64,000 nucleotides of DNA from a gamma proteobacterium HIMB55 (GTDB taxonomy: Bacteria; Pseudomonadota; Gammaproteobacteria; Pseudomonadales; Halieaceae). The stretch covers positions 2,190,035 to 2,254,034 of the forward strand of contig AGIF02000001.1 of the NCBI GenBank assembly GCA_000227505.4, read 5' to 3'. The notes under the pieces were generated by a model. It was not told the origin of the DNA and did not search any database. It was given only the letters and a program-made list of their open reading frames with translations. This document shows, one piece after another, positions 17,030 through 36,482 of the stretch (position 1 is the first letter of the stretch; the number at the start of each line of letters is the position of its first letter). A program made the translations under genes and the position numbers.

Positions 17030-17232
17030 AGACGGGGCTCACCGAGACGGCCACTACACGCCATCCAATATCCGCAAATACAATCCGCCTCGCCGTCGGA
17101 GGCCGCCACTCACCGCAAAACACCCCGAACTGTGGAAAAGTAACCTAGGGTTTGTAAGGCATCTCAGATACCCTGCGCCCGCATAAAGACTGGCGAAAAT
17201 AGCCATCACACTTTTTCATCAGGGGGGTCGCT

Positions 17233-18975
17233 GTGAGCGAAAAAATTAAGGTCGGAAAGCCGCTCGTTATTCTGCATGGCGACGAGATGGCGCAAGTTGC
17301 TTTCACCGAAATTTTGGCTCGGTTTGTTTCGCTGCCACTCGATATCAACCTTGTCGAAATCGATCTGTCTGCGCCCAAGCGCTTTACCAGTAACGGCCAA
17401 GTGATTCACGACGCCATCGCTGCTTTGAAAGAGCACGGCGTCGGCATTAAAAACGCGGGTATGACGGTCAACCGCATGCAGCTTGATGATCTCCTCGCCA
17501 AATACCCTGACGTCAAAGAATCTGAGCTCGACCCCCTCGCAACGAAATCACCTAACGGTGCCATCCGCAAAGGCATTAGCGGCAACATTACCCGCGAGGA
17601 CATCGAGTTTAAAAACCTAAAAAGTGTTCGTCCCGACTGGGTCGATCGCGACATCGAAGTTGACACCATGGAAACTGGTGGCTTGGACTTCAGCTACAGC
17701 GAACTCTCCAACGCAACCGGCGTGGCTAAAGTCATGTTCGTTGGATCAAGCGGTGATCCCGTGGAGCTGCACCGCCGCTCGCTCAACAAGGGCGACCCCT
17801 GGATGTTGGCGACAAATAACCTCGATGAGGTCAAGGCTTGGGCGCATCGCTTCTTCCAACGTGCGATCAATGAAAAGCGAGACATCTTCCTCGGACTTAA
17901 GGACACCGTAGTCTCGGGTTACGACGGTGTAATGCGAACCGCTATCGAAGAGATTTATGAACAGGACTACAAAGCAAAAGTTGCCGAAGCGGGACTTAGC
18001 TACCACTACGAACTCATAGATGCTCAAGCAGCACGTATTGTCTCGAATCCACCCGAGCGCGCGTTGTGGGGTGTACCTGATAATGTCAGCGGGATGAAGC
18101 TGTTTAAGCTCGTGCAGCAGCTCAAACGCTATGGCTTACCTGAGCGCAAAGCGCATGTGTCGATATCGAGAATGAGCGCCGGCGGTGGCGATCAGTACGG
18201 CAGCTACAACACGCCAGCGCCGGAGCAAGGTGTGATCAAGGTAATCGTTGATGGCGAGGAAAAACACGCCCGCTACGTCGATGAAGGCGACCCTATCCTC
18301 TTCATGTCGAACGACCGTGAGGCGATCAAAGACTGGGTCAGCCAGGTTTTCCAAGACGCAGCGCTTAATAAGAAAGAGGTCTACTTCGGCTTGAAGCGCG
18401 AGTTCGTTAACTACGACGAAGTTTACAGCTCGATTATTTTGGAGATTCGGAAGGAATTAGCAGCGCTCGACACACCACCGCCCTCTTTCATGATCATGCG
18501 TCCGTCTCGTCAGCTCAGTAAGATGATTTGTGACCCACCCCGTTGGGGCCTCTATCCTGCTCAGAATCTGGATGGTGATATCTTCTCTGACATCTCTGCA
18601 GCGCTGGGCGGAAGCCTTGCGACAGCAAGCTCTGTGATTATCAGTAAAGACGGCACCAAACTCTTCGAGGCACCGCACGGCACTGCCCACGACTTGTACC
18701 TGCGCTATCTAGAAACTGACGGTAAAGAAGCTAACTTCAACTCGTCTGCACTTATCTTTGCAGTTGCCAGTGCGCTAGAAGAACTCGCTGTCCGAGAAGA
18801 TAACGCAGCGCTCCATGACTACGCTGCCCGCTTGAAAGCAGCGCTGATTGAGACAGTCGCACAAGGTACGATTACTGGGGACTTAAAAGGCAAGACAACC
18901 ACGCCCGAGCGCGAGCGCATCGTCGATATGCACGGCTTCCTGGACGCCATTGCCGACAACCTGAAAAGCGACTGA
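17233..18975 (+). CDS. icd: Isocitrate dehydrogenase, type II fold with internal duplication, probably NAD-dependent
   Basis: A 580-residue protein, about 170 longer than the usual 405-415 of eukaryote-like (type II) isocitrate dehydrogenases. The substrate loop SPNGAIRKG and the metal site NLDGDIFSD (Asp447, Asp449, Asp453) are intact. A block at residues about 163-286 repeats at about 333-449: GVAKV/GVIKV, NKGDPW/DEGDPI, IFLGLK/VYFGLK, NPPERALWG/DPPRWGLYP. The first copy lacks the DGD metal ligands; the second has them, preceded by GGGDQYGSY, the equivalent of GRHAYGDQY. At the cofactor site HGTAHDL, Asp487 and Leu488 replace the Arg-His that binds the NADP phosphate, so NAD is predicted. 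Start is GTG with AGGGGGGT upstream. Confidence 0.9.
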   Translation: MSEKIKVGKPLVILHGDEMAQVAFTEILARFVSLPLDINLVEIDLSAPKRFTSNGQVIHDAIAALKEHGVGIKNAGMTVNRMQLDDLLAKYPDVKESELDPLATKSPNGAIRKGISGNITREDIEFKNLKSVRPDWVDRDIEVDTMETGGLDFSYSELSNATGVAKVMFVGSSGDPVELHRRSLNKGDPWMLATNNLDEVKAWAHRFFQRAINEKRDIFLGLKDTVVSGYDGVMRTAIEEIYEQDYKAKVAEAGLSYHYELIDAQAARIVSNPPERALWGVPDNVSGMKLFKLVQQLKRYGLPERKAHVSISRMSAGGGDQYGSYNTPAPEQGVIKVIVDGEEKHARYVDEGDPILFMSNDREAIKDWVSQVFQDAALNKKEVYFGLKREFVNYDEVYSSIILEIRKELAALDTPPPSFMIMRPSRQLSKMICDPPRWGLYPAQNLDGDIFSDISAALGGSLATASSVIISKDGTKLFEAPHGTAHDLYLRYLETDGKEANFNSSALIFAVASALEELAVREDNAALHDYAARLKAALIETVAQGTITGDLKGKTTTPERERIVDMHGFLDAIADNLKSD

Positions 18976-21453: not shown

Positions 21454-22464
21454 TCACCCCTGGCGTCGTCGAGACCGACGCCCACCGCCTTCACCGCCGC
21501 GGCTCGACAGATCTGGCCAAGGCTTACCCAGCTGCTCCGCCATTGCCTCACCATCGAAAGTCCTTGGAGGTGTGGAGTTGAGCGCCTCAACCATCGCCGC
21601 CAAATGCTCTGGCGTGGTGCCGCAACATCCGCCAATAACCGTCGCACCTGCATCCCGCGCGTGCAGCGCGTAGTGCGCCATGAGCTCAGGACTGCCATGG
21701 AAATGGATCTCACCGTCGACATACTGGGGAATCCCGCAGTTCCCCTTTGCGATAACAGGTAAGCCAGAGTCCGCACTCAGCAATTCAGTGGTGGAGTCCA
21801 TTAGCTCAGCGGGGCCAATACCGCAGTTAGAGCCAATCAGGTCTAAGCCAATTTCTTTCGCAAACGCCGCATATTCCGTCGGTGTTATGCCCATCATTGA
21901 CCGACGCGCCGTGTCGAAGGTCAGCGTTGCGGCAACGGGTAATCCCGTCTTCTTCGCGGCTTCCGCCGCAGCAGCAACTTCTTCGGTGGAAGACATGGTC
22001 TCAATCCAGAGCGCATCAGCGCCCCCCTCGGCGAGTGCCTCTGCCTGCTCGGCAAAAAAAGCGGCGGTCGACGCGTGGGTGAGGTCACCCATAGGCGCGA
22101 ACAACTCACCGGTAGGACCCATAGATCCAGCAACAACCGCTTCGTTTCCGTCGGCATCCGCATGCTCTGCTGCTGCCTGGCGCGCCAGTTGAGCAGCTGC
22201 CTTGTTGATCTCGTGGACCCGATGCTCGCTTTTGTGGAGTTTCAAACGCGGTGCGTTAGCACCAAAACTATTGGTAAGAATTAGGTCAGCACCCGCCTTC
22301 AAAAACTCTCTGTGCAGCCACAGCACTTCATCAGGTCGCTCGACGCACCAAAGTTCAGGGGGATACCCAGCTTCAAGCCCTCGACCAAAAAAGTTAGAAC
22401 CCGTAGCGCCATCAGTTACACACCAGCCCTTGCGAGCGATGACATCAAGAATAGGATTAGACAT
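21454..22464 (-). CDS. bmt: Betaine-homocysteine S-methyltransferase-like protein
   Basis: A 336-residue homocysteine-binding TIM-barrel protein. Zinc ligands are Cys214 (GSNCGIGP) and Cys280-Cys281 (GGCCGTT). The N-terminus VTDGATGSNFFGRGLEAGYP is typical of the bacterial betaine-homocysteine group found in marine bacteria. It transfers a methyl group from a methylated donor, likely glycine betaine or dimethylsulfoniopropionate, to homocysteine to give methionine. There is no cobalamin domain, which separates it from MetH. The Arg/Gly-rich tail is unusual. It lies beside the predicted betaine-degradation island, transcribed on the same strand 277 bases beyond its last gene. Confidence 0.85.
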   Translation of the reverse strand: MSNPILDVIARKGWCVTDGATGSNFFGRGLEAGYPPELWCVERPDEVLWLHREFLKAGADLILTNSFGANAPRLKLHKSEHRVHEINKAAAQLARQAAAEHADADGNEAVVAGSMGPTGELFAPMGDLTHASTAAFFAEQAEALAEGGADALWIETMSSTEEVAAAAEAAKKTGLPVAATLTFDTARRSMMGITPTEYAAFAKEIGLDLIGSNCGIGPAELMDSTTELLSADSGLPVIAKGNCGIPQYVDGEIHFHGSPELMAHYALHARDAGATVIGGCCGTTPEHLAAMVEALNSTPPRTFDGEAMAEQLGKPWPDLSSRGGEGGGRRSRRRQG

Positions 22465-22741: not shown

Positions 22742-23995
22742 TCAAACCAGGTTATCGGCGGCTGTCTCGATCGCCTCTTGAGTCATCGCCATATCGGCTT
22801 CAGTGAGCGCCAAATGCGGATAAATCTTTGCCGGTGATTTTAAGATGCCACTGCCGCGTAGCGATTTATTAAACGCCGCCTGTTTGGCTTTATCGGTCTG
22901 ACCCAAGTCACGGTAATCTGTGATCAGCGCCTCGCGAAATATGACATCGAACAACACCGAGTTGCCGACTATTTGGTGCGCGATCCCCCGCCCGTTCAGC
23001 GCATTAACCAGCATTGCCTGTATTCGATCTCCCAGATCTCGCAACCGCTCGAATTGCCCCGGGCGTTTTAGGATTTCGAGTGTCTTCAAACCAGCTACCG
23101 CAGCGATGGGATTACCAGACAGCGTACCCACTTGCATGAGCCACTGGTCACCCGCGACTGACTTATCAAAGAGCGACATAACATCTTTGCGTCCAGCAAC
23201 GGCTGCGAGTGGCATTCCACCCCCAATGGTTTTTCCTAGCGTGCAGAGGTCAGGTATGACGCCATAGAGGCTTTGAGCACCCCCCCAAGCAAACCGGAAA
23301 CCGGTGACCACCTCATCGAAAATTAAAAGTGATCCTTGTTGGTCACAGACATCGCGCAATGACTGAAGAAAACCAGCTTGCGCTGGGATAATCCGCTGCA
23401 GAGGTTCCGCAATGATTGCCGCAATATCAGCGCCGTGCTGATCAAATACCGCTTTTAGGTGTTCAGGGCTGTTCCAAGGGATCACCAAGGTCTGATCCTG
23501 AACCGCTTGAAGAATACCGGCCGAGTCCGGTTCTGGCCTCGGAAAATCAATGAGCTTCGAGGGACTCAGGCTCATCTGTCCCTCGTCGCTCATACCGTGG
23601 TAGGCGCCCTCAAACTTCACGATCAAATTGCGTCCAGTAAACGCACGCGCTAGACGAATAGCGAACATATCCGCCTCACCACCTGTCGATACGTAGCGCA
23701 GTTGCTCGGCGCAGGGCACGGCCTCGCAGATCACCTCAGCAAGCTCGATGCCTTTTGGGTTTGACGCAAAAAAGCTGAAACCTTCAGAGAGCTGCTCCGC
23801 CACTGCCTCAACAACCTCGGGATGACTGTGACCCAAGAGCATAGGACCGGAACCAATCAGGTAATCGAGATACTCATTACCATCGTCATCCCAGACACGC
23901 GAACCTTGTCCTCGTTCAATGACGAGTGATGCATCAAAGTTGCCAAATCCACCGCCGGGCAAGACGGCTTTTGCGCGCTCAGTCCAGGACGACAT
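22742..23995 (-). CDS. Class III aminotransferase, glutamate-1-semialdehyde-aminotransferase-like
   Basis: A 417-residue PLP enzyme. The PLP Lys is Lys255 (TLGKTIGGG), the pyridine-binding Asp is Asp227 (LIFDEVVTGFR), and the substrate-side motif STGGEADM is at 103-110. It resembles HemL and 2,1-aminomutase-type members, but its genomic setting argues for catabolism, not haem synthesis. As the last gene of the minus operon it overlaps the preceding enolase-superfamily gene by 17 bases, with an AGGAG inside that gene. It could remove or move the amino group after demethylation of a betaine-type substrate. Substrate unknown. Confidence 0.88.
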   Translation of the reverse strand: MSSWTERAKAVLPGGGFGNFDASLVIERGQGSRVWDDDGNEYLDYLIGSGPMLLGHSHPEVVEAVAEQLSEGFSFFASNPKGIELAEVICEAVPCAEQLRYVSTGGEADMFAIRLARAFTGRNLIVKFEGAYHGMSDEGQMSLSPSKLIDFPRPEPDSAGILQAVQDQTLVIPWNSPEHLKAVFDQHGADIAAIIAEPLQRIIPAQAGFLQSLRDVCDQQGSLLIFDEVVTGFRFAWGGAQSLYGVIPDLCTLGKTIGGGMPLAAVAGRKDVMSLFDKSVAGDQWLMQVGTLSGNPIAAVAGLKTLEILKRPGQFERLRDLGDRIQAMLVNALNGRGIAHQIVGNSVLFDVIFREALITDYRDLGQTDKAKQAAFNKSLRGSGILKSPAKIYPHLALTEADMAMTQEAIETAADNLV

Positions 23996-25082
23996 CAGGG
24001 GCTCCTAGCGTATCGAGGTCGGGCTCAACACCCAGACCGGGTTTGTCATTAGGCCCAATGCAGCCGTCTTTTCGAGTGGGACTGTTGGGGTCAAGCCTGG
24101 GTCCAACGTAACCGGATAGATCGCAGACATTCATAATGCGCTCGGGAGGTGTTGACGCCGCTAAATGAAGCGATGCGGCCGTCACAATATCGGAACCCCA
24201 GGTGTCTTCAACGCACATCCTTACCCCAAGGTAGCAGCACAGATCACGGGCGCGTACAGCCGCAGAAAGCCCGCCAAATTTGGAGATCTTCAACGCGACC
24301 GCGTCGAGACAGTCGAGCTCATTGGCGCGCATCAAATCTCCGGGGGTCTTGGCATTCTCGTCGATTTTCATCGGGAGCGAGGTTGCGCTCTTGACCGACG
24401 CGCACTCCTCAAGCGTTGCGCAGGGCTGCTCTAGCATGATGTCGAGATCGGCAACTGCCCTCCCGACACGAATGGCGTCGAGCTTGTTTGAGCCGCAGTT
24501 CCAGTCACCGTAGACCAGTGGTCCGTTGCCCACGGCCTCGCGAACCTTCCGGAGCCGAGCAACGTCTTTTTCCCACTGCTTATCAGCACCCAATTTGCAT
24601 TGGAACTGACGAATCCCCGAGGCGTAAGCCTCTTTAGCAATCTCGACCATTTCCTCGGGCTCGATGCAAGTGATCGAGTGATAAGTGGGAATAGCATCGG
24701 CAAACTTTCCGCCGAGCAAGTTGTAAAGCGGTTGCCCCGCTACCTTGGCGTTGATATCCCAAAGTGCCATGTCGACGGCTGACTTCGCTGCATCATGGCC
24801 AATCAGCCACTTATCGAGCCGATGCATGAACGCTGGAGCGCCCATTGGGTTGTGGCCTAATATCTCGGGAGCCATTTCCGTAATTGCGGGCGCGATACCG
24901 CGCGAAAACGACGGTAAGTAGTGCGGAATGACGCAGTGCTCACCCCAGCCTGCAACACCCGCATCGGTATCGAGTCGAACAACGACGCTCTCGACCGTAT
25001 CGCAGGTTTTGCCGTCCGACATGTAATAGGTTTTATGGCTCGTCAGATCGACGTGCCAAATTGAAATGCCTGTAATTTTCAT
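23979..25082 (-). CDS. Enolase-superfamily (MR/MLE) epimerase/dehydratase, paralogue C
   Basis: A 367-residue mandelate-racemase/muconate-lactonizing-type protein. Metal ligands are Asp193 (YGDWN), Glu218 (LEQPC) and Asp241 (KIDENA). Acid-base Lys residues are Lys163 (FQCKLG) and Lys265 (LKISKFGG). The first Lys of the usual KxK motif is Gln161. Residues 293-296 read DTWG. Lys163 and Lys265 fall at the positions I recall for the hydroxyproline-betaine epimerase HpbD, where an active-site Trp holds the quaternary ammonium. ATG overlaps the upstream paralogue's stop (ATGA). Probably an epimerase or dehydratase for a betaine-type or amino acid substrate. Confidence 0.85.
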   Translation of the reverse strand: MKITGISIWHVDLTSHKTYYMSDGKTCDTVESVVVRLDTDAGVAGWGEHCVIPHYLPSFSRGIAPAITEMAPEILGHNPMGAPAFMHRLDKWLIGHDAAKSAVDMALWDINAKVAGQPLYNLLGGKFADAIPTYHSITCIEPEEMVEIAKEAYASGIRQFQCKLGADKQWEKDVARLRKVREAVGNGPLVYGDWNCGSNKLDAIRVGRAVADLDIMLEQPCATLEECASVKSATSLPMKIDENAKTPGDLMRANELDCLDAVALKISKFGGLSAAVRARDLCCYLGVRMCVEDTWGSDIVTAASLHLAASTPPERIMNVCDLSGYVGPRLDPNSPTRKDGCIGPNDKPGLGVEPDLDTLGAPDVVLD

Positions 25083-26185
25083 TGATATACCGCCACGGGG
25101 TGGCCCAGTTGATCTTCGTTCGGCTCAACACCTAACCCCGGTTCTTCAGGGAGGTGCAGGTGCCCAGCTTTATTGCGAGGACCTCGCCCGTCGGCGATGT
25201 CCACTGTCAGCATGTCTTGGCAAGCCCAGACGGCGTGACAATTGATATCGGGGATGGTGGCCGCCAAATGCAGCGCCTCAGTGTCTGCAAGCACGGAACC
25301 ACCGGTTGCCATCACGAACATGTCGATTCCATGGGCGAGTGCGACATCGCGCATTCGCGCAGCCTTGGTAAGACCACCGACGCGGTTAAGCTTGATACCG
25401 AAGATCTCCGCTAATCCATCGCGGGCAATGCGCGCCGCATCCTGTAGCGTCACAAGACTCTCGTCGACGCTGACAGGTGCCGAATGAAGCGGACGGATCG
25501 CAGCGATATCGTCGAGTGTCTCACCCGGCTGCTCGAACATCACCTTGAGATCTTCGGTTGCCTGCATCACCCTGAGTGCCTGCTGACGTGTCCATCCACG
25601 ATTCACATCGTAGAGCACGATCTCTCCGGGCAGTCGGATCGACTCGACATCGCGAACTCTCGCCACGTCGCGCTCGACATCGCCGCCGATTTTTACGGAA
25701 TGCGCGACATAGCCTCGATCTCGATAGCGCTGGATAACCTCGCGCGTCTCTTCGACAGTCTTGGCGCCAACCGATGAGGCAATGGGTCGTGGCGTTCGAC
25801 TCCCACCACCCATCAGATCAGCAATTGGAAGGCCTGCGGCCTTACCGGCAATATCCCAACACGCCATGTCAATCGGCGACTTCGCGTAGAGGTGTCCCGG
25901 TAGTGCAAGATCCATCGCACGCTCGACGTCGAGCACCCGGCGCGGATCGAGCCCCAAAACAAAGGACGCCATTGTCTCAATGCCCGCGCGGATGCCCGGA
26001 CCATGTGCAGGTACATACGTATGTCCCCACGGTGTACCCTCGCCCCATCCGGTGATGCCGGCATCGGTCTCAATCTTTACAAAGGTGGCGTCGAGACACT
26101 CGAATTTCAGCCTACCCCCGGACAGCCAGTAAGGATGCTCTAGCGGTAAGTCGACCTGATAAACGGATATACGGGTAATCTTCAT
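25079..26185 (-). CDS. Enolase-superfamily (MR/MLE) epimerase/dehydratase, paralogue B
   Basis: A 368-residue relative of the flanking genes. Asp193 (YDVNRGW), Glu218 (FEQPGE) and Asp241 (VDESLV) bind metal, and Lys165 (HSVKIGG) and Lys265 (IKLNRVGG) are the acid-base pair. Where paralogues A and C have DTWG, this copy reads ATGGS, so the aromatic residue is lost and the substrate should differ. I prefer the ATG at 26185, which overlaps the previous stop as ATGA and gives MKIT like its paralogues, over a GTG nine bases upstream. It may handle a later, non-quaternary intermediate. Confidence 0.85.
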   Translation of the reverse strand: MKITRISVYQVDLPLEHPYWLSGGRLKFECLDATFVKIETDAGITGWGEGTPWGHTYVPAHGPGIRAGIETMASFVLGLDPRRVLDVERAMDLALPGHLYAKSPIDMACWDIAGKAAGLPIADLMGGGSRTPRPIASSVGAKTVEETREVIQRYRDRGYVAHSVKIGGDVERDVARVRDVESIRLPGEIVLYDVNRGWTRQQALRVMQATEDLKVMFEQPGETLDDIAAIRPLHSAPVSVDESLVTLQDAARIARDGLAEIFGIKLNRVGGLTKAARMRDVALAHGIDMFVMATGGSVLADTEALHLAATIPDINCHAVWACQDMLTVDIADGRGPRNKAGHLHLPEEPGLGVEPNEDQLGHPVAVYQ

Positions 26186-27288
26186 GCGCGCCACTCCGCC
26201 ACCGCCGGACCCAAACTCTCAAAATCGGGGGTTACGCCCAAGCCTGGACCATCGGGTGCATATAACTTGCCGTGGCGGGCATATGCGCCACCAATACCCG
26301 TCGATCGCGTGTTGTAGTTCATCAGATCGGTGGTGTTCTGCAGGTATTCCTCGGGTGTCGATGCTGCAAAGTGCGCCACGGCTGCCGTCGTAATCTCGCC
26401 ACCCCAGGTGTCTTCACTGACCACAGGCAGGCGATTATCTACGAGAAAATCCCGTACGCGACGCGCCTTACTCAGACCGCCCAGGTTTGAGAGTTTTAAG
26501 CAACAGATCTCAGCCCCTTTATCTGCCACAACGCGCTGGGCAGCCGCTATTCCAGTAATGCACTCGTCAAGCTTCATCGGCTGCTGTGCAACACGACGCA
26601 CTTGCTGACATTCCTCATAAGTCCGACAGGGCTGCTCGAGAATGTAATCGAGATCAGCCGTGGCTCTGGCAACACGAATCGCGTTATCCACACGCCATCC
26701 CTGGTTGGCGTCGGCCACGGCCTTCTCACCCGGTTCTAACAGCGATACACCCGTATGGATACGTTCAATATCGTCTGACCAATCGCTCCCGACTTTGATT
26801 TGAAACTGGCGATAACCCTGTTCGCGATAACGCTGCATCTCGGCCACTGTCTCGTCGGTGGCCTTCTGGGGCGCAACGCGATACATCGGTGCGCCGTCAG
26901 TCAATTTGCCACCCATGAGCATCCAGAGTGGTTGCCCGCAGGATTGACCGAGGAGGTCCCAACAGGCGATATCGATGGGCGATTTTGCGTAGCCATGTCC
27001 CTGCACTAGATGGTCGAGCAAAGCCTCGATGCGCGCCACCTGCCGAGGGTCTTCGCCCAGCAGCGATGGCGCCACGAGTCTTAACAGCGCTTCCACGCCT
27101 TCTGAATGAGCGACCATGTAATTCTCGCCGCAAGGCGTGAACTCACCACAGCCCTGCAGACCAGCATCGGTGTCGATGACCACCACAGACGCGATAGCGG
27201 TGGTGATGGCGTTGCCAGCACCCCAACAGTAACTACCACCCACGTAAGGTAGTGGCGTCTTATAAAGGCTGATCCCCGTTATCTTCAC
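26182..27288 (-). CDS. Enolase-superfamily (MR/MLE) epimerase/dehydratase, paralogue A
   Basis: A 368-residue protein with intact Asp193 (ADANQGW), Glu218 (LEQPC), Asp241 (LDECI), Lys165 (FQIKVG) and Lys265 (LKLSNLGG). DTWG lies at 293-296, as in paralogue C. It starts at GTG, overlapping the alcohol-dehydrogenase stop by GTGA. Together with genes B and C it forms a head-to-tail triplet of equal-length paralogues joined by 4-base overlaps, which suggests local gene duplication followed by divergence and tightly coupled translation. Role: epimerisation or dehydration of a carboxylate substrate by proton abstraction next to the carboxyl group. Confidence 0.85.
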   Translation of the reverse strand: MKITGISLYKTPLPYVGGSYCWGAGNAITTAIASVVVIDTDAGLQGCGEFTPCGENYMVAHSEGVEALLRLVAPSLLGEDPRQVARIEALLDHLVQGHGYAKSPIDIACWDLLGQSCGQPLWMLMGGKLTDGAPMYRVAPQKATDETVAEMQRYREQGYRQFQIKVGSDWSDDIERIHTGVSLLEPGEKAVADANQGWRVDNAIRVARATADLDYILEQPCRTYEECQQVRRVAQQPMKLDECITGIAAAQRVVADKGAEICCLKLSNLGGLSKARRVRDFLVDNRLPVVSEDTWGGEITTAAVAHFAASTPEEYLQNTTDLMNYNTRSTGIGGAYARHGKLYAPDGPGLGVTPDFESLGPAVAEWRA

Positions 27289-28373
27289 GGCGTGACCACA
27301 ATGTTTCCGGTGTGCGCTTTGGCAATGAAGGCGGTCTGTGCCTCACGTAGCTGCTCAAGCGGGTAGCTTGCTGCAAGTACAGGTCGGATCGCTTTCGACT
27401 CGATGTATCGAATCAAATTCTCGGTCACTTCGGGTGGGATTACGGTCGAGCCCAACAGCGTTAGATCACGGAGATAAAACGTGCGTAGATCCAGCTCGAC
27501 AATAGGCCCGGCAATGGCGCCTGAGGAAACGTAACGGCCACCCCGCTCAAGTACATCAATGACGCTGTGCCAGTCCGGACCACCGACCACATCAGCCACA
27601 ACCGTAATGCGCTCATCGGCCAACTCCGCCTCGAGGTTCTCGGGCGATCGAGGTAATACGCGATCAGCACCGAGTGCACGTACCGCCGCATGCTTTTCGG
27701 TAGACGCAAGTGCAATGACACGCGCGCCTCTGAGCTTAGCAAGCTGAATCAAGGCGCCACCAACACCACCCGAGGCGCCGGTAATCAGTACCGTATCCGA
27801 GGCAGTAATTGCGGCGCGGCAAACCATACCTTCAGCGGTAGAGTACGAGCAGGAAAATGTCGCTAGCTCCGCATCAGTGTAATCCGACGTCACCGCCAGA
27901 GCGTTGGCGGCTGGGATCACCGTGTACTCGGCGTAACCGCCATGACATTCAGAGCCAAAGTAACCGGTCTTATCCATGTTGGCTGGATCTTCCGGGTCTC
28001 TGAGCCAATTGTCGGTGATCACACGCTCGCCGATTCGGGCTGCGTCGACCCCGTCGCCCACGGCAACGATCTCACCACAGACATCCGCACCCTGAATACG
28101 CGGAAAGACAATGGGGTTTCCGCCCCAGGTAGGGTCTTCGGTATTCACAGTGTCGAACGCATCGCCCGTGGTCGCATCCGATACGGCTTTGGAGTACCAA
28201 CCCGAGCGCGTGTTCACGTCAGTGTTGTTTAAGCCACACGCACCCACGCGGATGAGCACTTCGCCCGCTGCGGGATCGGGTCGCGGCCAATCCGCGTGAA
28301 GAACGATTTTGTCGATGCCACCGTGACCTTCGGTCACCATAGCCCGCATTGTTGTCGGTAGTTCAGCTGACAT
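27285..28373 (-). CDS. Medium-chain dehydrogenase/reductase (alcohol dehydrogenase/quinone reductase-like)
   Basis: A 362-residue MDR protein. The N-terminal GroES-like domain has GACGLNNTDVNTRSGWYSK and GADVCGEIVAVG, and the cofactor motif TGASGGVGGALIQLAK is near residues 181-196. The Cys/His ligands of the catalytic zinc in classical alcohol dehydrogenases are not in the usual pattern (LNNTDV replaces CHTD), so it is closer to quinone-reductase or zinc-independent reductases. I chose the ATG at 28373 with GAGAGG upstream; a GTG 21 bases earlier is also in frame. It is the second gene of the minus operon, 64 bases after the flavoprotein. Substrate unknown. Confidence 0.85.
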   Translation of the reverse strand: MSAELPTTMRAMVTEGHGGIDKIVLHADWPRPDPAAGEVLIRVGACGLNNTDVNTRSGWYSKAVSDATTGDAFDTVNTEDPTWGGNPIVFPRIQGADVCGEIVAVGDGVDAARIGERVITDNWLRDPEDPANMDKTGYFGSECHGGYAEYTVIPAANALAVTSDYTDAELATFSCSYSTAEGMVCRAAITASDTVLITGASGGVGGALIQLAKLRGARVIALASTEKHAAVRALGADRVLPRSPENLEAELADERITVVADVVGGPDWHSVIDVLERGGRYVSSGAIAGPIVELDLRTFYLRDLTLLGSTVIPPEVTENLIRYIESKAIRPVLAASYPLEQLREAQTAFIAKAHTGNIVVTP

Positions 28374-28437
28374 GGACCAATCCTCTCTTCTCACCTAGGT
28401 GATTCGGTACTAGGGCGCTTTGCGCCGCTTACGCTAG

Positions 28438-30891
28438 TTATGCCACTTCGCGGGGCCGCTCGCTCATGGGGTCATACGCAGGCTCACCAAGGACCGTCGC
28501 AGAACGGGGCTCGCCCGCAATGACCACCTCGAGCGTCTTTCCGGGAATCGCAGCCTCAGGCTTGATATAGGCAAAGGCCATAATCTTTTCCGCGGTGTAG
28601 CCATAGGCCACCGAACTCGTTGCGCCAACCATTTCGCCATCCATCAGAACAGCCTCACCCCCGTGCCCATCGTGATGTCCATCGGGCTCAATCGCCAGAT
28701 AAGCACAGACCCAGGGAAGATCCTCAGTCATTGCCGTGACGGTCTTATCTCTCCCGATAAATTCGCCCTTTTCGGTCTTCACGAAGCGCATGACCGCAGC
28801 CTCAGGGAGCGTGACTTCGTTGTTCAGCTCAGACGCACCGGGGAACATTTTCTCCATGCGCAGGCTGTTCATCGCAAAGCTGCCGTAGTTGACGATGCCG
28901 TGAGCCTCGCCCGAGGCCCAGAGTGCGTCATATATAGGCAGCATGGCCTCACGCGGGCCGTGAAACTCCCAACCCATCTCACCCGCATACGACATGCGTA
29001 GCGCCCACACTTTATGACCTGCGACACTAATTTCTTGCCCGCGCAGCCAGGGGAAATCCGCCTTCTCAAGCGATACGTCAACGTGTGGCGCGAGCGTTGC
29101 CTTTGATTTCGGCCCCTGCAGTGCCATCGAGAACCAATCGCTGGAGAGGTTGCTGATTTCGACAGACAGTTCGCCGCGATAACGATCGAGATGATCGAGC
29201 AGGCGCTGCTCGAAGAACGCCGCACAGGTTAGGTAGTAAGCATCGTCAGCGAACTTAACGATGGTCATTTCCATTTCGATACGGCCGCGCTCATTGAGCA
29301 TGTGCGTCAAGCAAATGCCCCCCATCTTTTGCGGGAGCTTATTTGCGATCAGGCCGTCGAGCAGCGCTTCTGCGTCGGCGCCGCTGACTTTAACTTTGGT
29401 GAACGCGCAGATATCCATAATCCCAACGCGCTCGCGAACCGCGGTGTGCTCCTCGCCCACGCGATCGTGGACAATGTTTCGACCGAAGCTGTAGTGGTCT
29501 TCCTGAGCTTCCTCACCCGTCGCAAACCATCGCGGACGCTCGTGTCCGTAAACTTCCTCAAAGACAGCACCTTGGGCTTTTAAGCGATCGTAAAGCGGGC
29601 TGGGCTTTACGGGCCGCCCTGCGAGACGATTGAAGTGCGGGAAGGGAATCTCGTGTCGAAGAAGGTAATCTTCCCTCGCCTTGATGTTCTGCCACTTCTT
29701 GTCGGCATAGGGGCCGAAACGACGCGGATCAAAGGCCCGCATTGAGATATCCGCGGAGCCGTAAACCATCCAGCGCGCGAGCTCACGCGTCAGACCGGGA
29801 CCCCAGCCAATGCCAATTTGCGTGCCGCAACAGCACCAGTAGTTGCGAACACCCGGCGCGGGTCCAATCAGTGGATTGCCATCTGGCGGATGAGAAATAG
29901 CACCGTGAACATCGCGCTTAATACCCAGCTCGGCAAAGATGGGCATACGATCAAGCGCGTTTTCGAGCCACGGCATGATGCGGTCGTAATCAGCTTCAAA
30001 GAGATGATTCTCGGCTTCCCAGGGACAGTGGTCATCCCAGACAACATTGGGGTTGGCCTTCTCGTAAATACCAATAAGACCCGCCTTCTGCTCCATACGG
30101 ATATAGCCAGAGACCAACTTGTCATCGCGAATAACCGGGAGTTCGTGCTCAAGGTCCATAAACTCAGGCACGTTATCGGTCACGAAATAATGGTGCGTCA
30201 TCGACGTCGTAGGGATATTGATGCCACTCCACTCACCGACTTGGCGAGCGTAGGTGCCTGCCGCGTTGACAACGTGCTCACAAACAACATCGCCATGGTC
30301 AGTCGATACACGCCACTCGCCCGAAGGCAACTGCTGCACGTCCGTCGCGCGGCAGTGCCGAATCACTGTTGCACCGAGCTGTCGCGCACCTTTTGACAGC
30401 GCCATAGTTACGCCCGATGGATCGACGTGACCATCGTCGGGGGTGTAGAGCGCACCGACCACACCATCCAGGTTGTAGAAAGGATGCATTTCGCGAACGC
30501 GCGAGGGAAGAACGAGCTCTGAGTTAAAGCCGAGCGCAACGTTTACCGACCGGGTGTAGCGCAACCAGTCCATCTCATCTTCATCGTAGGCGAGTCGAAA
30601 CGAACCACAGCCATGCCAAGTCGTCGACTGACCGGTCTCGGCCTCGAGGCCACCGTTATAAAGCTGGATGTTGTAGTCAACGCACTTACCCAAAGCGAGC
30701 GAGCTGGTCGACTGGGTGATTTGGCCGGCCGCGTGCCAGGTCGAGCCTGAGGTGAGCTCGTGCTTTTCAAGGAGCACAATATCGGTCCAGCCCTCGTGTG
30801 CGAGGTGATAAGCAATACCGCAACCCATAACACCGCCGCCGATAATGACGACGCGGGCGGATGAAGGAACGGGTTTGGTAGGTCCAGCCAT
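28438..30891 (-). CDS. Dimethylglycine/sarcosine dehydrogenase-like flavoprotein with folate domain
   Basis: An 817-residue protein with an N-terminal FAD-binding DAO domain (VVIIGGGVMGCGIAYHL). STWHAAGQ follows, and its His is the covalent FAD site in dimethylglycine dehydrogenase. A middle FAO domain comes next, then a C-terminal GcvT-like tetrahydrofolate domain (MNSLRMEKMFPG, TLPEAAVMRFVK). The family removes N-methyl groups from secondary or tertiary amines and passes the carbon to folate. The ATG at 30891 was chosen over the in-frame start at 30954 because the extra 21 residues lack family resemblance and overlap the divergent regulator start. It is the first gene of the minus operon and probably demethylates the Rieske product. 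Confidence 0.9.
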   Translation of the reverse strand: MAGPTKPVPSSARVVIIGGGVMGCGIAYHLAHEGWTDIVLLEKHELTSGSTWHAAGQITQSTSSLALGKCVDYNIQLYNGGLEAETGQSTTWHGCGSFRLAYDEDEMDWLRYTRSVNVALGFNSELVLPSRVREMHPFYNLDGVVGALYTPDDGHVDPSGVTMALSKGARQLGATVIRHCRATDVQQLPSGEWRVSTDHGDVVCEHVVNAAGTYARQVGEWSGINIPTTSMTHHYFVTDNVPEFMDLEHELPVIRDDKLVSGYIRMEQKAGLIGIYEKANPNVVWDDHCPWEAENHLFEADYDRIMPWLENALDRMPIFAELGIKRDVHGAISHPPDGNPLIGPAPGVRNYWCCCGTQIGIGWGPGLTRELARWMVYGSADISMRAFDPRRFGPYADKKWQNIKAREDYLLRHEIPFPHFNRLAGRPVKPSPLYDRLKAQGAVFEEVYGHERPRWFATGEEAQEDHYSFGRNIVHDRVGEEHTAVRERVGIMDICAFTKVKVSGADAEALLDGLIANKLPQKMGGICLTHMLNERGRIEMEMTIVKFADDAYYLTCAAFFEQRLLDHLDRYRGELSVEISNLSSDWFSMALQGPKSKATLAPHVDVSLEKADFPWLRGQEISVAGHKVWALRMSYAGEMGWEFHGPREAMLPIYDALWASGEAHGIVNYGSFAMNSLRMEKMFPGASELNNEVTLPEAAVMRFVKTEKGEFIGRDKTVTAMTEDLPWVCAYLAIEPDGHHDGHGGEAVLMDGEMVGATSSVAYGYTAEKIMAFAYIKPEAAIPGKTLEVVIAGEPRSATVLGEPAYDPMSERPREVA

Positions 30892-30947
30892 GAGCAAACT
30901 CTCGAATTTTTTCTGATTATCGTTGCGTTTGATCCTATGATACGATT

Positions 30948-30985
30948 GTACCAATGTCGAATATTAATGAAACAAACGTACCAAT
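30948..30985. promoter_or_regulatory. Direct repeats GTACCAAT at the divergent regulator/flavoprotein junction
   Basis: GTACCAAT occurs at 30948-30955 and again at 30978-30985, 30 bases apart, which is about three helical turns. The first copy contains the regulator's ATG and the second lies inside its first codons. A TATGAT resembling a -10 box is just upstream. The position between two divergent catabolic operons fits an RpiR operator with autoregulation; this is inference. Confidence 0.35.
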
Positions 30986-31862
30986 TTCACAACTTGAGCC
31001 CGACGCTATTCTGTCGCGGCTTACGACGGCATATGACGAGCTCAGCCCCGAGCTCAAGAAAGCCGCTGGTTACGTCATCGACAACCCAAACGACGTGGGC
31101 GTTTCGTCTATTCGAGAAATTTCTGACGCAGCGTCGGTCACACCCAACACCTTTGTCCGACTCGCAAAATCGATTGGCTTTGAGGGTTATGAAGATCTGC
31201 GCTCGCCCTTTCGCGAGCAATTAAGAAGCGGCTCGATCAACTTTACGGACCGCGCACGTTGGCTGCAGTCGCTCTCCCACGAAGGTCATCTTGGGCCGCT
31301 GTACGCTGATATGGTCAAGGCAGCGATCGATAATATCGAACAAACCTTCAGCAATATTAGCGTGGAAGCGCTGACACAAGCGGGCGACGATATTTGGAAT
31401 TCGCGCCAAGTCTTCACGCTCGGTGTCGGGGTTCACAATGCAAACGCCAGTAACTTCACCTATCTTGCGCGGACGGGCATGGTGCAGTTCCAAACGATTC
31501 CGAGTGCGGGCGGTACAGCAATCGATGAACTCGCTTGGGCGGACGAGCAGGATGTTCTTATTGCCATTACCTGCGCACCGTTCAGAGAAGAAGTCGTGAC
31601 CGCAGTGAAAGTTGCTCGCGAACAGGGACTCACTATTGTCGCAATCTCTGATAGCGCCTCAGCACCCATCATGCGTATTGCTGATCACGCTTTCCTTGTC
31701 GCTGACGAAACACCGCAATTCTTCCCATCGTCTGTCGCAACGATTGCCTTACTCGAGACGCTTTTATCCTTTGTTATTGCCCGAGCAGATGAGAAAATCA
31801 TTGATCGCGTCGAGGCCTTCCACAAGCGTCGACACCAGCTAGGGATTTATCACAATGACTGA
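30954..31862 (+). CDS. RpiR/MurR-family transcriptional regulator
   Basis: A 302-residue regulator. The N-terminal helix-turn-helix (RpiR type) is marked by SPELKKAAGYVIDNPNDVGV and ISDAASVTPNTFVRLAKSIG. The C-terminal SIS domain (residues about 125-270) would bind the effector, with EVVTAVKVAREQGLTIVAI. Members often sense sugar phosphates, but several sense amino-acid-like or sulfonate solutes. It sits between the two divergent operons and its stop overlaps the Rieske oxygenase start by 8 bases, so it is the first gene of the plus operon and the likely local regulator. No clear Shine-Dalgarno is seen, so the transcript may be leaderless. Confidence 0.9.
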   Translation: MSNINETNVPISQLEPDAILSRLTTAYDELSPELKKAAGYVIDNPNDVGVSSIREISDAASVTPNTFVRLAKSIGFEGYEDLRSPFREQLRSGSINFTDRARWLQSLSHEGHLGPLYADMVKAAIDNIEQTFSNISVEALTQAGDDIWNSRQVFTLGVGVHNANASNFTYLARTGMVQFQTIPSAGGTAIDELAWADEQDVLIAITCAPFREEVVTAVKVAREQGLTIVAISDSASAPIMRIADHAFLVADETPQFFPSSVATIALLETLLSFVIARADEKIIDRVEAFHKRRHQLGIYHND

Positions 31863-32949
31863 ACCACTCAAGTCGCTAGACGCTCGCTATTACGTCGACC
31901 CTGCGATCTTTGCTATCGAGAAGCAGCACCTACTGGCAACGACTTGGCAATTTGCCGGGCACGAGTCACAGGTGAAGAACCCGGGTGACTACTTCACCTT
32001 CAGCATTGCGGGCGAAAATTTGTTCTGCATCCGCGATCGCGAGGGAAACCTCAACTGCTTCTACAACGTTTGCCAGCACCGCGCGCATGAACTTGTCGAA
32101 GGCGACGGTAACGCACGCCTATTGATCTGCCCCTACCACACCTGGACCTATGAGCTCTCCGGTGAACTGCGCATGGGGCCGAATGTACTTTCAACACCTG
32201 GCTTTGACCGCAGCAAAATCTGCTTGACGTCGGTGCGACTGGAAAACTTCCACGGTTTCCTCTTCGTCAATCTTGATGACGATGCAAAGCCAATGGACGA
32301 ATGGTTCCCCGGGGCCCGTGAAGAGCTCGCAAGTTACGTCCCGAATATTCTGGATCTGACGCCAGTGGAATACGTTGAAGTATTCGAGAAAACCAACTGG
32401 AAGGTCTCGGTCGAGAACTACTCGGAGTGTTATCACTGCTCGAGAAATCACCCAACCTTTGCCAACGGTGTGATCAAGCCATCAACTTACGACATTCAGC
32501 CGCAAGGTTATTGCCTTCGACACACCACGGAATGTCAGGATGACTTGTCCGACATGACCTACGAGATCGATCTCGAGTCCAATGATAAGGCTGGCAAATA
32601 CTCGAGCTGGTTTTTGTGGCCAATGTTCTCTTTCCAGGTTTACCCAGGGAACGTGCTCAACACCTATCACTGGCGCGTAAGCGATGCGGTCGATGAGGTC
32701 GTTATGTACCGAGGTTGGTATGCCTTTGATGAGAAGAGCGAAGCCATTGCGCGTCAACTCGCCGTGCAGGATCGCGATACGACCGTTGCCGAGGACATTC
32801 GCCTTGTTGAATCGATTCAGCGCGGCATGAACTCTCGAGGCTACAAGCCGGGTCCGCTCGTACTCGACCCGAATGGCGGCGTGAATTCTGAACACTCGAT
32901 CAAAGCGCTGCAGGAATGGACCAAGGAGGCCGTCGATCAATACCTTTAA
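31855..32949 (+). CDS. Rieske non-haem iron oxygenase alpha subunit, carnitine-oxygenase (CntA)-like
   Basis: A 364-residue oxygenase. The Rieske 2Fe-2S ligands are Cys73, His75, Cys92 and His95 (CQHRAH and CPYHTW). The mononuclear iron site is His194, His199 and Asp314 (in ENYSECYHCSRNHP and AEDIRLVES). The residue bridging the two centres is Glu191 instead of the Asp of ring-hydroxylating dioxygenases. To my knowledge this Glu marks the quaternary-amine group (CntA, glycine betaine and stachydrine demethylases). The C-terminal SRGYKPGPLV and SEHSIKALQEW also match CntA. Expected role: oxidative N-demethylation or C-N cleavage of a betaine-type compound. The reductase partner is missing locally. 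Confidence 0.88.
   Translation: MTEPLKSLDARYYVDPAIFAIEKQHLLATTWQFAGHESQVKNPGDYFTFSIAGENLFCIRDREGNLNCFYNVCQHRAHELVEGDGNARLLICPYHTWTYELSGELRMGPNVLSTPGFDRSKICLTSVRLENFHGFLFVNLDDDAKPMDEWFPGAREELASYVPNILDLTPVEYVEVFEKTNWKVSVENYSECYHCSRNHPTFANGVIKPSTYDIQPQGYCLRHTTECQDDLSDMTYEIDLESNDKAGKYSSWFLWPMFSFQVYPGNVLNTYHWRVSDAVDEVVMYRGWYAFDEKSEAIARQLAVQDRDTTVAEDIRLVESIQRGMNSRGYKPGPLVLDPNGGVNSEHSIKALQEWTKEAVDQYL
32923..32938 (+). promoter_or_regulatory. Strong Shine-Dalgarno before an ATC start codon
   Basis: AAGGAGG at 32923-32929, inside the end of the Rieske gene, is followed after 6 bases by ATC at 32936-32938 in the aldehyde dehydrogenase frame. No ATG, GTG or TTG exists in that frame between the in-frame stop at 32882 and the GTG at 33122, which would delete a conserved N-terminus. 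The site decides the start of the aldehyde dehydrogenase. Confidence 0.6.
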
Positions 32950-34393
32950 TCCAAAACCCTATTATCAGAACTACATCGACGGGCAATTCGTAGACGGTGG
33001 TGCTGGCCGAATTACAGTCGACAACCCTGCCACGGGCGCCCCGCTTGCCGAACAGGCCATTGCTAACAGCGAAGACGTCGACAACGCCATCGCGGCGGCT
33101 CGTCGCTGTCACGAAAGTCGTGTGCTCACGGCCATGCGTCCTGTCGAGCGCGGTCGAATGGTCAAAGCTATCGGCGATTACCTGCTGGCTAACGTTGATG
33201 AGATTTCGCAACTCTTAAGTCTCGAAGCGGGTAAGCCGCTGTGGGAAGCCGTTATGGAGATCGAGGGCGCGGCGCGCTACTTCGAGTACTACGGCAATCA
33301 GGCAGAAACGCTCGAGGGTCGCTCTATTCCGCTTGGCGACGGCTATTACGATTTCACCACGTATGAGCCGCGTGGTGTTTCGGGCCAGATTATTCCCTGG
33401 AACTATCCCATGGAAATGACCGCACGCGGTGTAGCCGCCGCCCTAACGACGGGCAATACCGTGGTTGTGAAGTCGCCCGAGCTCGATCCACTGACACACT
33501 ATTACTACGCCCTTGCCGCCGACGCCGTAGGCTTCCCCGCAGGTGCTGTAAATATTGTTTGTGGCTTAGGTCACGAAGCCGGTGCCGCACTGTCATCGCA
33601 CAAAGGCGTCGACCAATTGGTATTCACAGGATCGGTACCGACCGGGGTGGCAATTGCCACCGCCGCTGCCCAGAACGTCGTGCCCTGTATTTTGGAACTT
33701 GGTGGTAAGTCAGCGGCCATCGTTTACAACGATGCGGATATTGAGAACCTACTCGATAGCATCCGGTGGGGCATTTTCTTTAACGCGGGCCAAGTCTGCT
33801 CCGCGATGTCGCGGCTGATTGTGCACCGCGATATTCATGATCAAGTGGTCTCCGCTATCACAGATCTCGCGAACTCGCTGTCCGTGGGCCCCGGTATCGA
33901 TCGGCCCGAGTTCGGCGCGAACATGGGCGCTATGGTATCGGAGGGCCAGCGTAATCGAGCTGTAGGACTCATCGAACGCGCCCAATCCGAAGGGGCTGTT
34001 ATCGCAGCTGGTGGTTCTGCCATGGATCGCGAGGGCTTCTTCCTGCACCCAACCATCCTCACAGGCGTTACACCTTCGATGGATATCGCGCGAACCGAAG
34101 TATTCGGACCCGTCCTATCTGTTCTTAGCTTCGATGACGAGGCTGAGGCGATTCGCATCGCAAACGATAGCGACTACGGGCTCGTCGGTGGTGTCTTCAC
34201 ACAAGATATCGATCGCGCCATGCGTGTGGCTCGCGATGTCGGTGCCGGCCAGATCTTCATTAACGAGTGGTACGCCGGCGGTGTAGAGACACCGTTCGGT
34301 GGCTATAAACAGTCAGGCTACGGTCGTGAAAAAGGCCGTGAAGCACTGATGAATTACGTACAAACAAAGAACATTGGCATAAGGATCGGATAA
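32936..34393 (+). CDS. NAD(P)-dependent aldehyde dehydrogenase, apparent ATC start
   Basis: A 485-residue aldehyde dehydrogenase if begun at the ATC at 32936. The N-terminus NTFNPKPYYQNYIDGQFVDG is the normal beginning of this family. Catalytic residues are Glu254 (LELGGKS) and Cys288 (GQVCSAMS), 34 apart as expected. VSGQIIPWNYP is the cofactor entry motif. A perfect Shine-Dalgarno lies 6 bases upstream, and the first 14 bases overlap the Rieske gene. A start at GTG 33122 would lose about 62 conserved residues. It would oxidise an aldehyde such as a betaine aldehyde or a semialdehyde made in the pathway. A sequencing error at the start codon is the main alternative. Confidence 0.88.
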   Translation: MNTFNPKPYYQNYIDGQFVDGGAGRITVDNPATGAPLAEQAIANSEDVDNAIAAARRCHESRVLTAMRPVERGRMVKAIGDYLLANVDEISQLLSLEAGKPLWEAVMEIEGAARYFEYYGNQAETLEGRSIPLGDGYYDFTTYEPRGVSGQIIPWNYPMEMTARGVAAALTTGNTVVVKSPELDPLTHYYYALAADAVGFPAGAVNIVCGLGHEAGAALSSHKGVDQLVFTGSVPTGVAIATAAAQNVVPCILELGGKSAAIVYNDADIENLLDSIRWGIFFNAGQVCSAMSRLIVHRDIHDQVVSAITDLANSLSVGPGIDRPEFGANMGAMVSEGQRNRAVGLIERAQSEGAVIAAGGSAMDREGFFLHPTILTGVTPSMDIARTEVFGPVLSVLSFDDEAEAIRIANDSDYGLVGGVFTQDIDRAMRVARDVGAGQIFINEWYAGGVETPFGGYKQSGYGREKGREALMNYVQTKNIGIRIG

Positions 34394-34774
34394 ATGGATC
34401 AAGATCTATTCGAGAAAGGCCTCGAGATGCGCAAGCAGGTATTGGGCGCCGAGTATGTTGAAAAGAATCTCGCTGCGGCAGATGACTTCACCCGTCCCTT
34501 TCAAGAGGCAATGACTGCCTGGTGCTGGGGTTTTGGCTGGGGCGATGATGTCATCGATCCCAAGACACGATCGATGATGAACCTCGCTATGATTGGTGCA
34601 TTAGGAAAGATGCACGAGTGGGAAGTGCATTGCCGCGGCGCGATTAATAATGGTGTGAGCAAAGAAGAGATTCAGGCCATCATTCATGTCATCGGCATTT
34701 ACTGCGGTGTACCGCAGTCGCTCGAGTGCTTTAGAGCGGCCCGAAAGGTCTTAGAGGAAAAAGGACTGGCCTGA
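34394..34774 (+). CDS. Carboxymuconolactone-decarboxylase-family protein
   Basis: A 126-residue protein of the CMD/AhpD-like fold, close in size and sequence to PcaC (GLEMRKQVLGAEYVEK at the N-terminus, MIGALGKMHEWEVHCRGA in the middle). It lacks the CxxC of peroxidase-type AhpD, so a decarboxylase or lyase-type role is more likely. Its ATG directly follows the aldehyde dehydrogenase stop. No beta-ketoadipate genes are near, so it probably acts on another lactone or carboxylate in this pathway, or its role is accessory. Function unresolved. Confidence 0.82.
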   Translation: MDQDLFEKGLEMRKQVLGAEYVEKNLAAADDFTRPFQEAMTAWCWGFGWGDDVIDPKTRSMMNLAMIGALGKMHEWEVHCRGAINNGVSKEEIQAIIHVIGIYCGVPQSLECFRAARKVLEEKGLA

Positions 34775-35021
34775 CATAACTTGAGCTACGCCAGCGTCAG
34801 AATTGCACAGCGAAATTATTGTGCAGGGACAAAGGCCGGTAAAAGCGCAATGACTGTCGTCAACCTGGCGGAACAACCGGGCAAAAAGAACAAGAAAGAA
34901 GATTTAGTCGCAACAAACAACAATAAAATAGGGCCTTTATCAGCACGCTCGATAAGGCCTACATTGCAGCCGCTACAGAAACAATGGTAGTGATGGCTAT
35001 AACAATAAAAAGGTGGTTTAC

Positions 35022-36365: not shown

Positions 36366-36482
36366 ACAAACACTCGGCTGATAGCTCCCCTGTTTGGTTA
36401 GAAAAAAGGCATTGGGGAAAACGCCTTGCGGGCGTACACTGCGCGCCCCGTAAAAATGATCGAAGTTATTGCTAGGTAAGCC

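Follow-up and report, generated by a model that had tools for sequence, protein, structure and literature searches.

A widespread candidate betaine operon of marine Proteobacteria with a conserved core and apparently exchangeable enolase-superfamily enzymes

The genome of gamma proteobacterium HIMB55 contains, within the 64,000-nucleotide stretch that was analysed (contig AGIF02000001.1, positions 2,190,035 to 2,254,034; hereafter the window), a row of three enolase-superfamily (ES) genes, named A, B and C in window order and arranged head to tail. Comparative analysis suggests that they belong to a widespread and so far uncharacterised betaine operon, which in other species holds several ES proteins of solved structure that carry generic names only. 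The operon may encode an aerobic pathway, as yet undescribed, whose substrate is a marine N-methylated (hydroxy)imino or amino acid. On this view a core ES enzyme would act after demethylation and an exchangeable cassette, consisting of a reductase of the MDR family, a cupin and one to three further ES enzymes, would act on the intact betaine; we advance this proposal tentatively, as somewhat short of an even chance. The literature on homarine, carnitine, betaine lipids and stachydrine yielded no description of this operon.

Results

The original prediction placed the three genes in a setting of quaternary or tertiary amine demethylation, and their neighbours support this. The Rieske protein of the operon has its best matches in CntA and GbcA, the FAD/GcvT fusion protein is of the DMGDH type, and both are encoded in one conserved operon (Table 1). 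Since this demethylase pair sits in the same divergon as the ES genes, betaine catabolism is the reading that we favour. Conservation was assessed in two samples, 50 loci fetched with A and, independently, the loci of FAD/GcvT orthologues in 149 Rhodobacterales genomes, and the same operon emerges from both. Orthologues of the FAD/GcvT protein (68–73%) occur in 30 of the 149 genomes; all 29 complete loci contain the Rieske gene and A (split in one case), 28 the RpiR regulator and 27 the aminotransferase, while the CMD gene and the aldehyde dehydrogenase gene are found, within the stretch taken, in 21 and 12 loci, respectively. The conserved core of the operon consists of the Rieske oxygenase, the RpiR regulator, the DMGDH-like demethylase, A and the class III aminotransferase. 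On a Roseovarius plasmid (L060), A is the only ES gene and a Pot-like ABC transporter lies downstream, with its substrate-binding protein encoded at 16423–17454. Within the window's own genus, A orthologues are present in only 2 of the 37 genomes searched.

Around this core the ES complement varies. Ten of the 29 loci have A alone, nine A and B, seven all three genes, two a set with an alternative type of B and the 2PCE type, and one B and C with the split A. Three of the loci with A alone (L093, L095, L096) still have the MDR gene, and L096 has in addition a short, weaker match to B. The two types of B never occur together in either sample. Over the 29 loci, and uncorrected for relatedness, B co-occurs with the MDR gene (Fisher p 0.002), the cupin gene (0.0007) and C (0.03). 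Between the window and the Rhodobacterales, the similarity of B, C and the MDR protein amounts to 88, 80 and 73%, compared with 86, 81 and 76% within the Rhodobacterales (the MDR protein being the less clear case), whereas the respective core values are 70 and 81% for the FAD/GcvT protein, 63 and 69% for A, and 60 and 72% for the aminotransferase. Because cross-lineage similarity equals that within the Rhodobacterales for the former set and not for the core, B and C, together with the zinc-less MDR reductase and in some loci the cupin, form an optional cassette whose movement between lineages is more recent than that of the core. The cupin, a 199-residue protein of the DMSP-lyase family (PF16867), is encoded between the MDR and ES genes in 14 of the 29 Rhodobacterales loci (for example, L020, 8290–8889).

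Both Pfam domains of the family, MR_MLE_N and MR_MLE_C, are detected in each of A, B and C with 58–145 bits, so far above the cut-off that a family match by chance is excluded. The metal ligands Asp193, Glu218 and Asp241 are present in all three proteins, as are Lys265 and the second lysine of the KxK motif (residue 163 in A, 165 in B and C), and this catalytic frame, anticipated in the original prediction, is invariant across 52 A, 21 B and 19 C orthologues. The two domains, the Asp/Glu/Asp ligands and the lysines that follow strands 2 and 6 assign A, B and C to the MLE subgroup of the superfamily. The first lysine of KxK is indeed replaced, by Gln in A and C and by Ser in B; since characterised HpbD and the cis-3-hydroxy-L-proline enzyme c3LHypD also have Gln at this position, such a replacement is the norm of the subgroup and no speciality of the window. 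The DNA likewise agrees with a tandem of three open reading frames joined by 4-base overlaps: B and A overlap in ATGA, the MDR gene and C in GTGA, and C and B again in ATGA, provided that B begins at its in-frame ATG; from the GTG given by the caller of open reading frames (25079–26194, 371 aa) the C/B overlap is 13 bases. A overlaps the following aminotransferase gene by 17 bases.

In a tree of 129 ES proteins, A has a separate clade (52 rows), B falls into a clade with two subtypes, one similar to PDB 3EEZ and the other, the alternative type mentioned above, to 2QDD, and C is the sister of c3LHypD (PDB 4MGG; SH-aLRT 97); all three lie outside the HpbD clade. Mutual identity among A, B and C is only 35–37%, whereas identity to a solved structure reaches 90% for B (3EEZ) and 77% for C (2RDX); for A the top identity among the solved proteins compared is 39%, to 4MGG. 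Each clade has orthologues elsewhere at 60–90% identity. Given three deep clades, and mutual identity far below that to foreign orthologues, the row was assembled from old, separate lineages; duplication in place, which had been suggested for these three adjoining and related genes, is ruled out by the tree together with the 35–37% mutual and 77–90% foreign-orthologue identities.

A placement of all three proteins among the acid-sugar dehydratases, which the original prediction had named as the finding that would speak against it, was looked for and not found: A, B and C all score below 90 bits with the models for ManD, TalGalacDh, GlucD and AraD, whose cut-offs are 311–829, and lie in that part of the MLE subgroup which includes HpbD and c3LHypD. 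In Hellea (L004, L012, L015, L016), A orthologues that are 62–65% identical occur in a different conserved operon, which contains no demethylases and encodes a GhrA-like 2-hydroxyacid dehydrogenase, A, a class II aldolase, a HalD-like Fe/2-oxoglutarate enzyme and a dehydrogenase of the 3-hydroxyisobutyrate type; an ES gene resembling acid-sugar dehydratases lies nearby. Such company would suit a scenario in which A, as a dehydratase of the acid-sugar type or for hydroxy acids, was recruited into the betaine operon. We consider this very unlikely, as A scores 335 bits with the c3LHypD model NF043002 and 31–87 bits with the acid-sugar dehydratase models, and keeps the HpbD/c3LHypD pocket.

The pockets were compared at 13 sites (134, 161, 163, 193, 196, 218, 241, 265, 292, 293, 295, 320 and 321 in HpbD numbering), which read YQKDREDKDDWWL in HpbD, YQKDTEDKEDWTD in c3LHypD, YQKDCEDKEDWCD in A, YQKDQEDKEDWTD in C, ASKDREDKMAGWA in B and NSKDREDKEDGWL in the alternative, 2QDD-like type of B. 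That the three genes differ in their active sites, as had been proposed, is evident from these signatures, which are invariant among held-out orthologues (21 of A, 15 of B, 8 of C) with the exception of site 293 in A, where 14 orthologues have Cys and 7 Asp. C matches c3LHypD at 12 of the 13 sites, A at 11 (its pocket including Y134, Q161, K163, E292, D293, W295, C320 and D321) and B at about half. The HpbD pocket set, Trp320 with Asp292, Asp293 and Trp295, is incomplete throughout: B has Trp320 alone of these and lacks Gln161 and Tyr134 as well, but shares Arg196 with HpbD, whereas A and C have Asp293 and Trp295 with Glu292, and in place of Trp320 a Cys in A and a Thr in C.

The residue that binds the ammonium group of the HpbD substrate by a cation–π contact is, as we take it, Trp320. 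The original prediction instead assigned quaternary binding to the DTWG motif at 293–296, which A and C have and which reads ATGG in B. The motif is correctly located, but its tryptophan, Trp295, is common to HpbD and c3LHypD, and the substrate of the latter, cis-3-hydroxy-L-proline, is not quaternary (PMC5144071). Because an enzyme for a non-quaternary imino acid has it, DTWG is no mark of quaternary substrates, and with Trp320 located elsewhere it is ruled out as such a marker. Asp321, found in A, C and c3LHypD, could pair with an N–H. As Trp320 is kept in B only and lost in A and C, which have Asp321, the assignment of A and C to quaternary or tertiary substrates and of B to a later intermediate is probably to be inverted, so that B would take the quaternary compound, and A and C its demethylated form. 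The contrast is a lead and no proof for such a division of labour, since the sites were picked with the contrast already in view. A reading that combines recent tandem duplication with a late-acting B, and in which DTWG lets A and C handle quaternary or tertiary stereoisomers, is likewise very unlikely: the adjoining related genes and the genuine demethylation context accord with it, yet it conflicts with the separate clades, with DTWG in c3LHypD, with Trp320 in B only and with the variability of site 293 in A.

An HpbD-like role, moreover, is not expected of any of the three proteins. A fourth ES gene of the same genome (L064, 8966–10069; at ~1.914 Mb) belongs to the HpbD clade, encodes a protein 54% identical to PbHpbD and agrees with it at 13 of 13 pocket sites; HpbD-clade genes are also present in several congeners. 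As the genome has this true HpbD-clade gene, A, B and C are not needed for the HpbD reaction, and their position in the tree together with that gene rules the role out. The HpbD-clade gene lies in a cluster (L064, 6237–19898; genome C1, ~1.911–1.924 Mb) with an apparent corrinoid methyltransferase set, read from the translations as an activase-like Fe-S protein, an MtrH-like methyltransferase, a B12-binding protein, a DUF1638-like protein and an MttB/MtgB-like protein. Named in the same way, a second FAD/GcvT protein, two SDRs, an FAH-like hydrolase and a phytanoyl-dioxygenase-like protein complete the cluster. Its content points to an aerobe that demethylates a hydroxyproline-type betaine with the help of cobalamin.

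Table 1. Genes of the candidate betaine operon in the window
Gene or product	Position	Strand	Remarks
GSAM-family class III aminotransferase	22742–23995	minus	SPVR, found at the N-terminus of GSAM, is absent; core partner of A
ES gene A	23979–25082	minus	367 aa, ATG start; core ES enzyme, c3LHypD-like pocket
ES gene B	25079–26185	minus	368 aa from in-frame ATG; keeps HpbD Trp320 and Arg196, D293/W295 lost
ES gene C	26182–27288	minus	368 aa, GTG start; sister clade of c3LHypD 4MGG
MDR-family reductase, quinone-oxidoreductase type ('ADH')	27285–28394	minus	GAD instead of GHE; cassette partner of B and C
FAD/GcvT fusion, DMGDH-like N-demethylase	28438–30954	minus	497 bits to mitochondrial DMGDH 5L46
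MurR/RpiR-family regulator	30954–31862	plus	divergent; conserved in operon
GbcA/CntA-like Rieske oxygenase alpha subunit (quaternary-amine oxygenase)	31855–32949	plus	204 bits to CntA 6Y8J
Aldehyde dehydrogenase, BADH-like	32951–34393	plus	frame open from 32951; listed start 33122 truncates gene
CMD-family protein, PcaC-like	34394–34774	plus	most conserved core protein, 80–88% window versus Rhodobacterales

Several of the partner genes allow further statements. The N-terminus of the aminotransferase reads PGGGFGNFDAS where GSAM has SPVR, including the substrate-binding Arg32, and because this stretch is replaced the substrate is likely other than that of GSAM. With GAD in place of GHE, the 'ADH' protein lacks a catalytic zinc site and is thus of the quinone-reductase or ene-reductase type. 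The listed TTG start of the FAD/GcvT gene probably lies upstream of the true one. The aldehyde dehydrogenase frame is open from the Rieske stop (window 32945–33122) and homology extends from ~32951, with no ATG, GTG or TTG in that interval before 33122, so that a rare codon or coupling to the Rieske stop may provide the start. The PcaC-like CMD protein, conserved at 80–88% across classes, has no AhpD-type CxxC motif.

Two neighbouring elements were set apart from the operon. A BHMT-like protein (window 21454–22464) scores 445 bits with PRK07534, above the curated cut-off of 338. Outside SAR11, Bhmt homologues of this kind serve as MtgE, the homocysteine module of a split methionine synthase (PMC12478193), and the gene was found in no alphaproteobacterial locus of the synteny set fetched with A; it was set aside as a betaine methyltransferase of the pathway and is probably an MtgE module outside it. 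On the other side, a DAO-type FAD oxidoreductase and a GbcA-like Rieske protein (35013–37676) adjoin the operon, a pair not found in the other loci of that set and possibly part of a separate amine pathway.

Discussion

Assuming that the operon serves the catabolism of an N-methylated amino or imino acid betaine and is inducible, an order of steps can be outlined, in which our confidence stays below the halfway mark. The Rieske oxygenase would remove the first methyl group from the quaternary nitrogen as formaldehyde, and the FAD/GcvT protein would transfer the remaining ones to tetrahydrofolate. A, and C where present, would then abstract the α-proton of the demethylated (N–H) acid between Lys163 and Lys265, leading to epimerisation and/or expulsion of a β-hydroxyl group as in cis-3-hydroxyproline dehydratase, after which the GSAM-like aminotransferase and the aldehyde dehydrogenase would feed the carbon skeleton to central metabolism. 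B would act ahead of demethylation on the quaternary compound, as a 2-epimerase/racemase or as a dehydratase, and together with the zinc-less reductase, and in some species the cupin, would open the pathway to an isomer of the core substrate or to a related compound.

The recurrence of the operon in marine Alpha- and Gammaproteobacteria alike makes a common phytoplankton compound the probable substrate. Proline-type acids are the substrates of all characterised members of the group, namely c3LHypD, HpbD and proline betaine racemase (PMC5144071). The most likely substrate class, as a best guess, would be a hydroxyproline-type betaine other than trans-4-hydroxyproline betaine, such as 3-hydroxyproline betaine. 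By chemical reasoning, the latter would be handled by the core enzymes: demethylation would give 3-hydroxyproline, its dehydration pyrroline-2-carboxylate and ring opening 5-amino-2-oxopentanoate, which transamination would convert to 2-oxoglutarate semialdehyde and oxidation to 2-oxoglutarate.

Alternatively, the substrate might be an acyclic quaternary amine with a β-hydroxyl or β-amino group, for example a carnitine-like compound or the head group of DGTA, a betaine lipid of algae. After demethylation it would be dehydrated as a β-hydroxy acid by an ES enzyme and reduced at the double bond by the MDR enzyme, and the GSAM-like protein would turn a β-amino acid by transamination into the semialdehyde that the aldehyde dehydrogenase takes. 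Such a route would account for the reductase character of the MDR protein and its weak matches to acryloyl-CoA reductases, for the DMSP-lyase-family cupin in the cassette of many loci, for the β-phenylalanine aminotransferases (4AO9, 2YKU) among the GSAM relatives and for carnitine monooxygenase being the best solved match of the Rieske protein. It appears doubtful, though a serious contender, because A and C keep Tyr134, Gln161 and Trp295, common to both characterised proline-type enzymes, because the characterised members of the group use cyclic imino acids, and because genes for β-alanine or propionate metabolism were not recognised in the operon. It is also conceivable, and rather unlikely, that all three ES proteins are stereoisomer-specific racemases or epimerases for free hydroxyprolines or related acids, merely supplied by the demethylases. 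Two lysines are placed for 1,1-proton transfer in each of them, and c3LHypD itself epimerises too (PMC5144071); the remodelled pocket of B, with Trp320 and lacking Trp295 and Tyr134, fits this poorly, and a plain epimerase would need neither the reductase nor the cupin that travel with B.

Several points also weigh against the hydroxyproline-type betaine pathway proposed here. None of the loci examined showed a recognisable gene for 4-hydroxyproline epimerase, HypD deaminase or Pyr2C reductase, and the scheme assigns no role to the CMD protein. A is not indispensable, as the operon on a Sulfitobacter SK012 plasmid (L061) has B and no A, nor is it tied to betaines, as its Hellea orthologues sit in an operon without demethylases. 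The division of labour leans on the 13 sites selected as described above, and on the ammonium-binding role presumed for Trp320 of HpbD.

Quaternary amines are a large and labile pool of marine nitrogen and carbon, and degradation pathways are known for only a few of them. If the proposal is correct, it would assign functions to four or more solved ES structures known only by generic names, and would place a pathway in about a fifth of the sampled Rhodobacterales and in some Halieaceae. The structures 3EEZ, 2RDX, 2QDD and 2PCE would come together in one operon context with a proposed order of reactions, and the contrast of Trp320 with Trp295/Asp321 offers a residue-based prediction of which paralogue sees the methylated substrate.

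Comparison with known systems

A, B and C share fold, length and catalytic residues with c3LHypD and are 39–43% identical to it. They differ in their scores with NF043002 (A 335, B 315 and C 392 bits), all below the curated cut-off of 500, and in their context, which consists of demethylases and an aminotransferase instead of enzymes of the proline-racemase family. HpbD (PDB 4H2H, 4E8G) is likewise an MLE-subgroup neighbour in a demethylation operon and shares Trp320 and Arg196 with B; A, B and C are, however, only 31–36% identical to it. Among the solved ES proteins, which PDB names as putative mandelate racemase/muconate lactonizing enzymes only, 3EEZ is an orthologue of B, 2RDX of C, and 2QDD represents the alternative type of B. 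Orthologues of 2PCE, 2RDX and 2QDD (77–85%) stand in one operon in two loci (L034, L046); for 2QDD, no direct genome match was found among 395 genomes of one family, the best reaching 79%.

The pathways for proline and hydroxyproline betaine (Hpb), as reported by Zhao in 2013 and Kumar in 2014, are said to combine Rieske and FAD/GcvT demethylation with an ES enzyme, and the window operon pairs the same demethylases with ES enzymes. The D-hydroxyproline oxidase, HypD deaminase and dedicated betaine ABC transporter of those systems were not recognised in the operon, which has instead a GSAM-like aminotransferase, a CMD protein and, in L060, a Pot-like ABC transporter.

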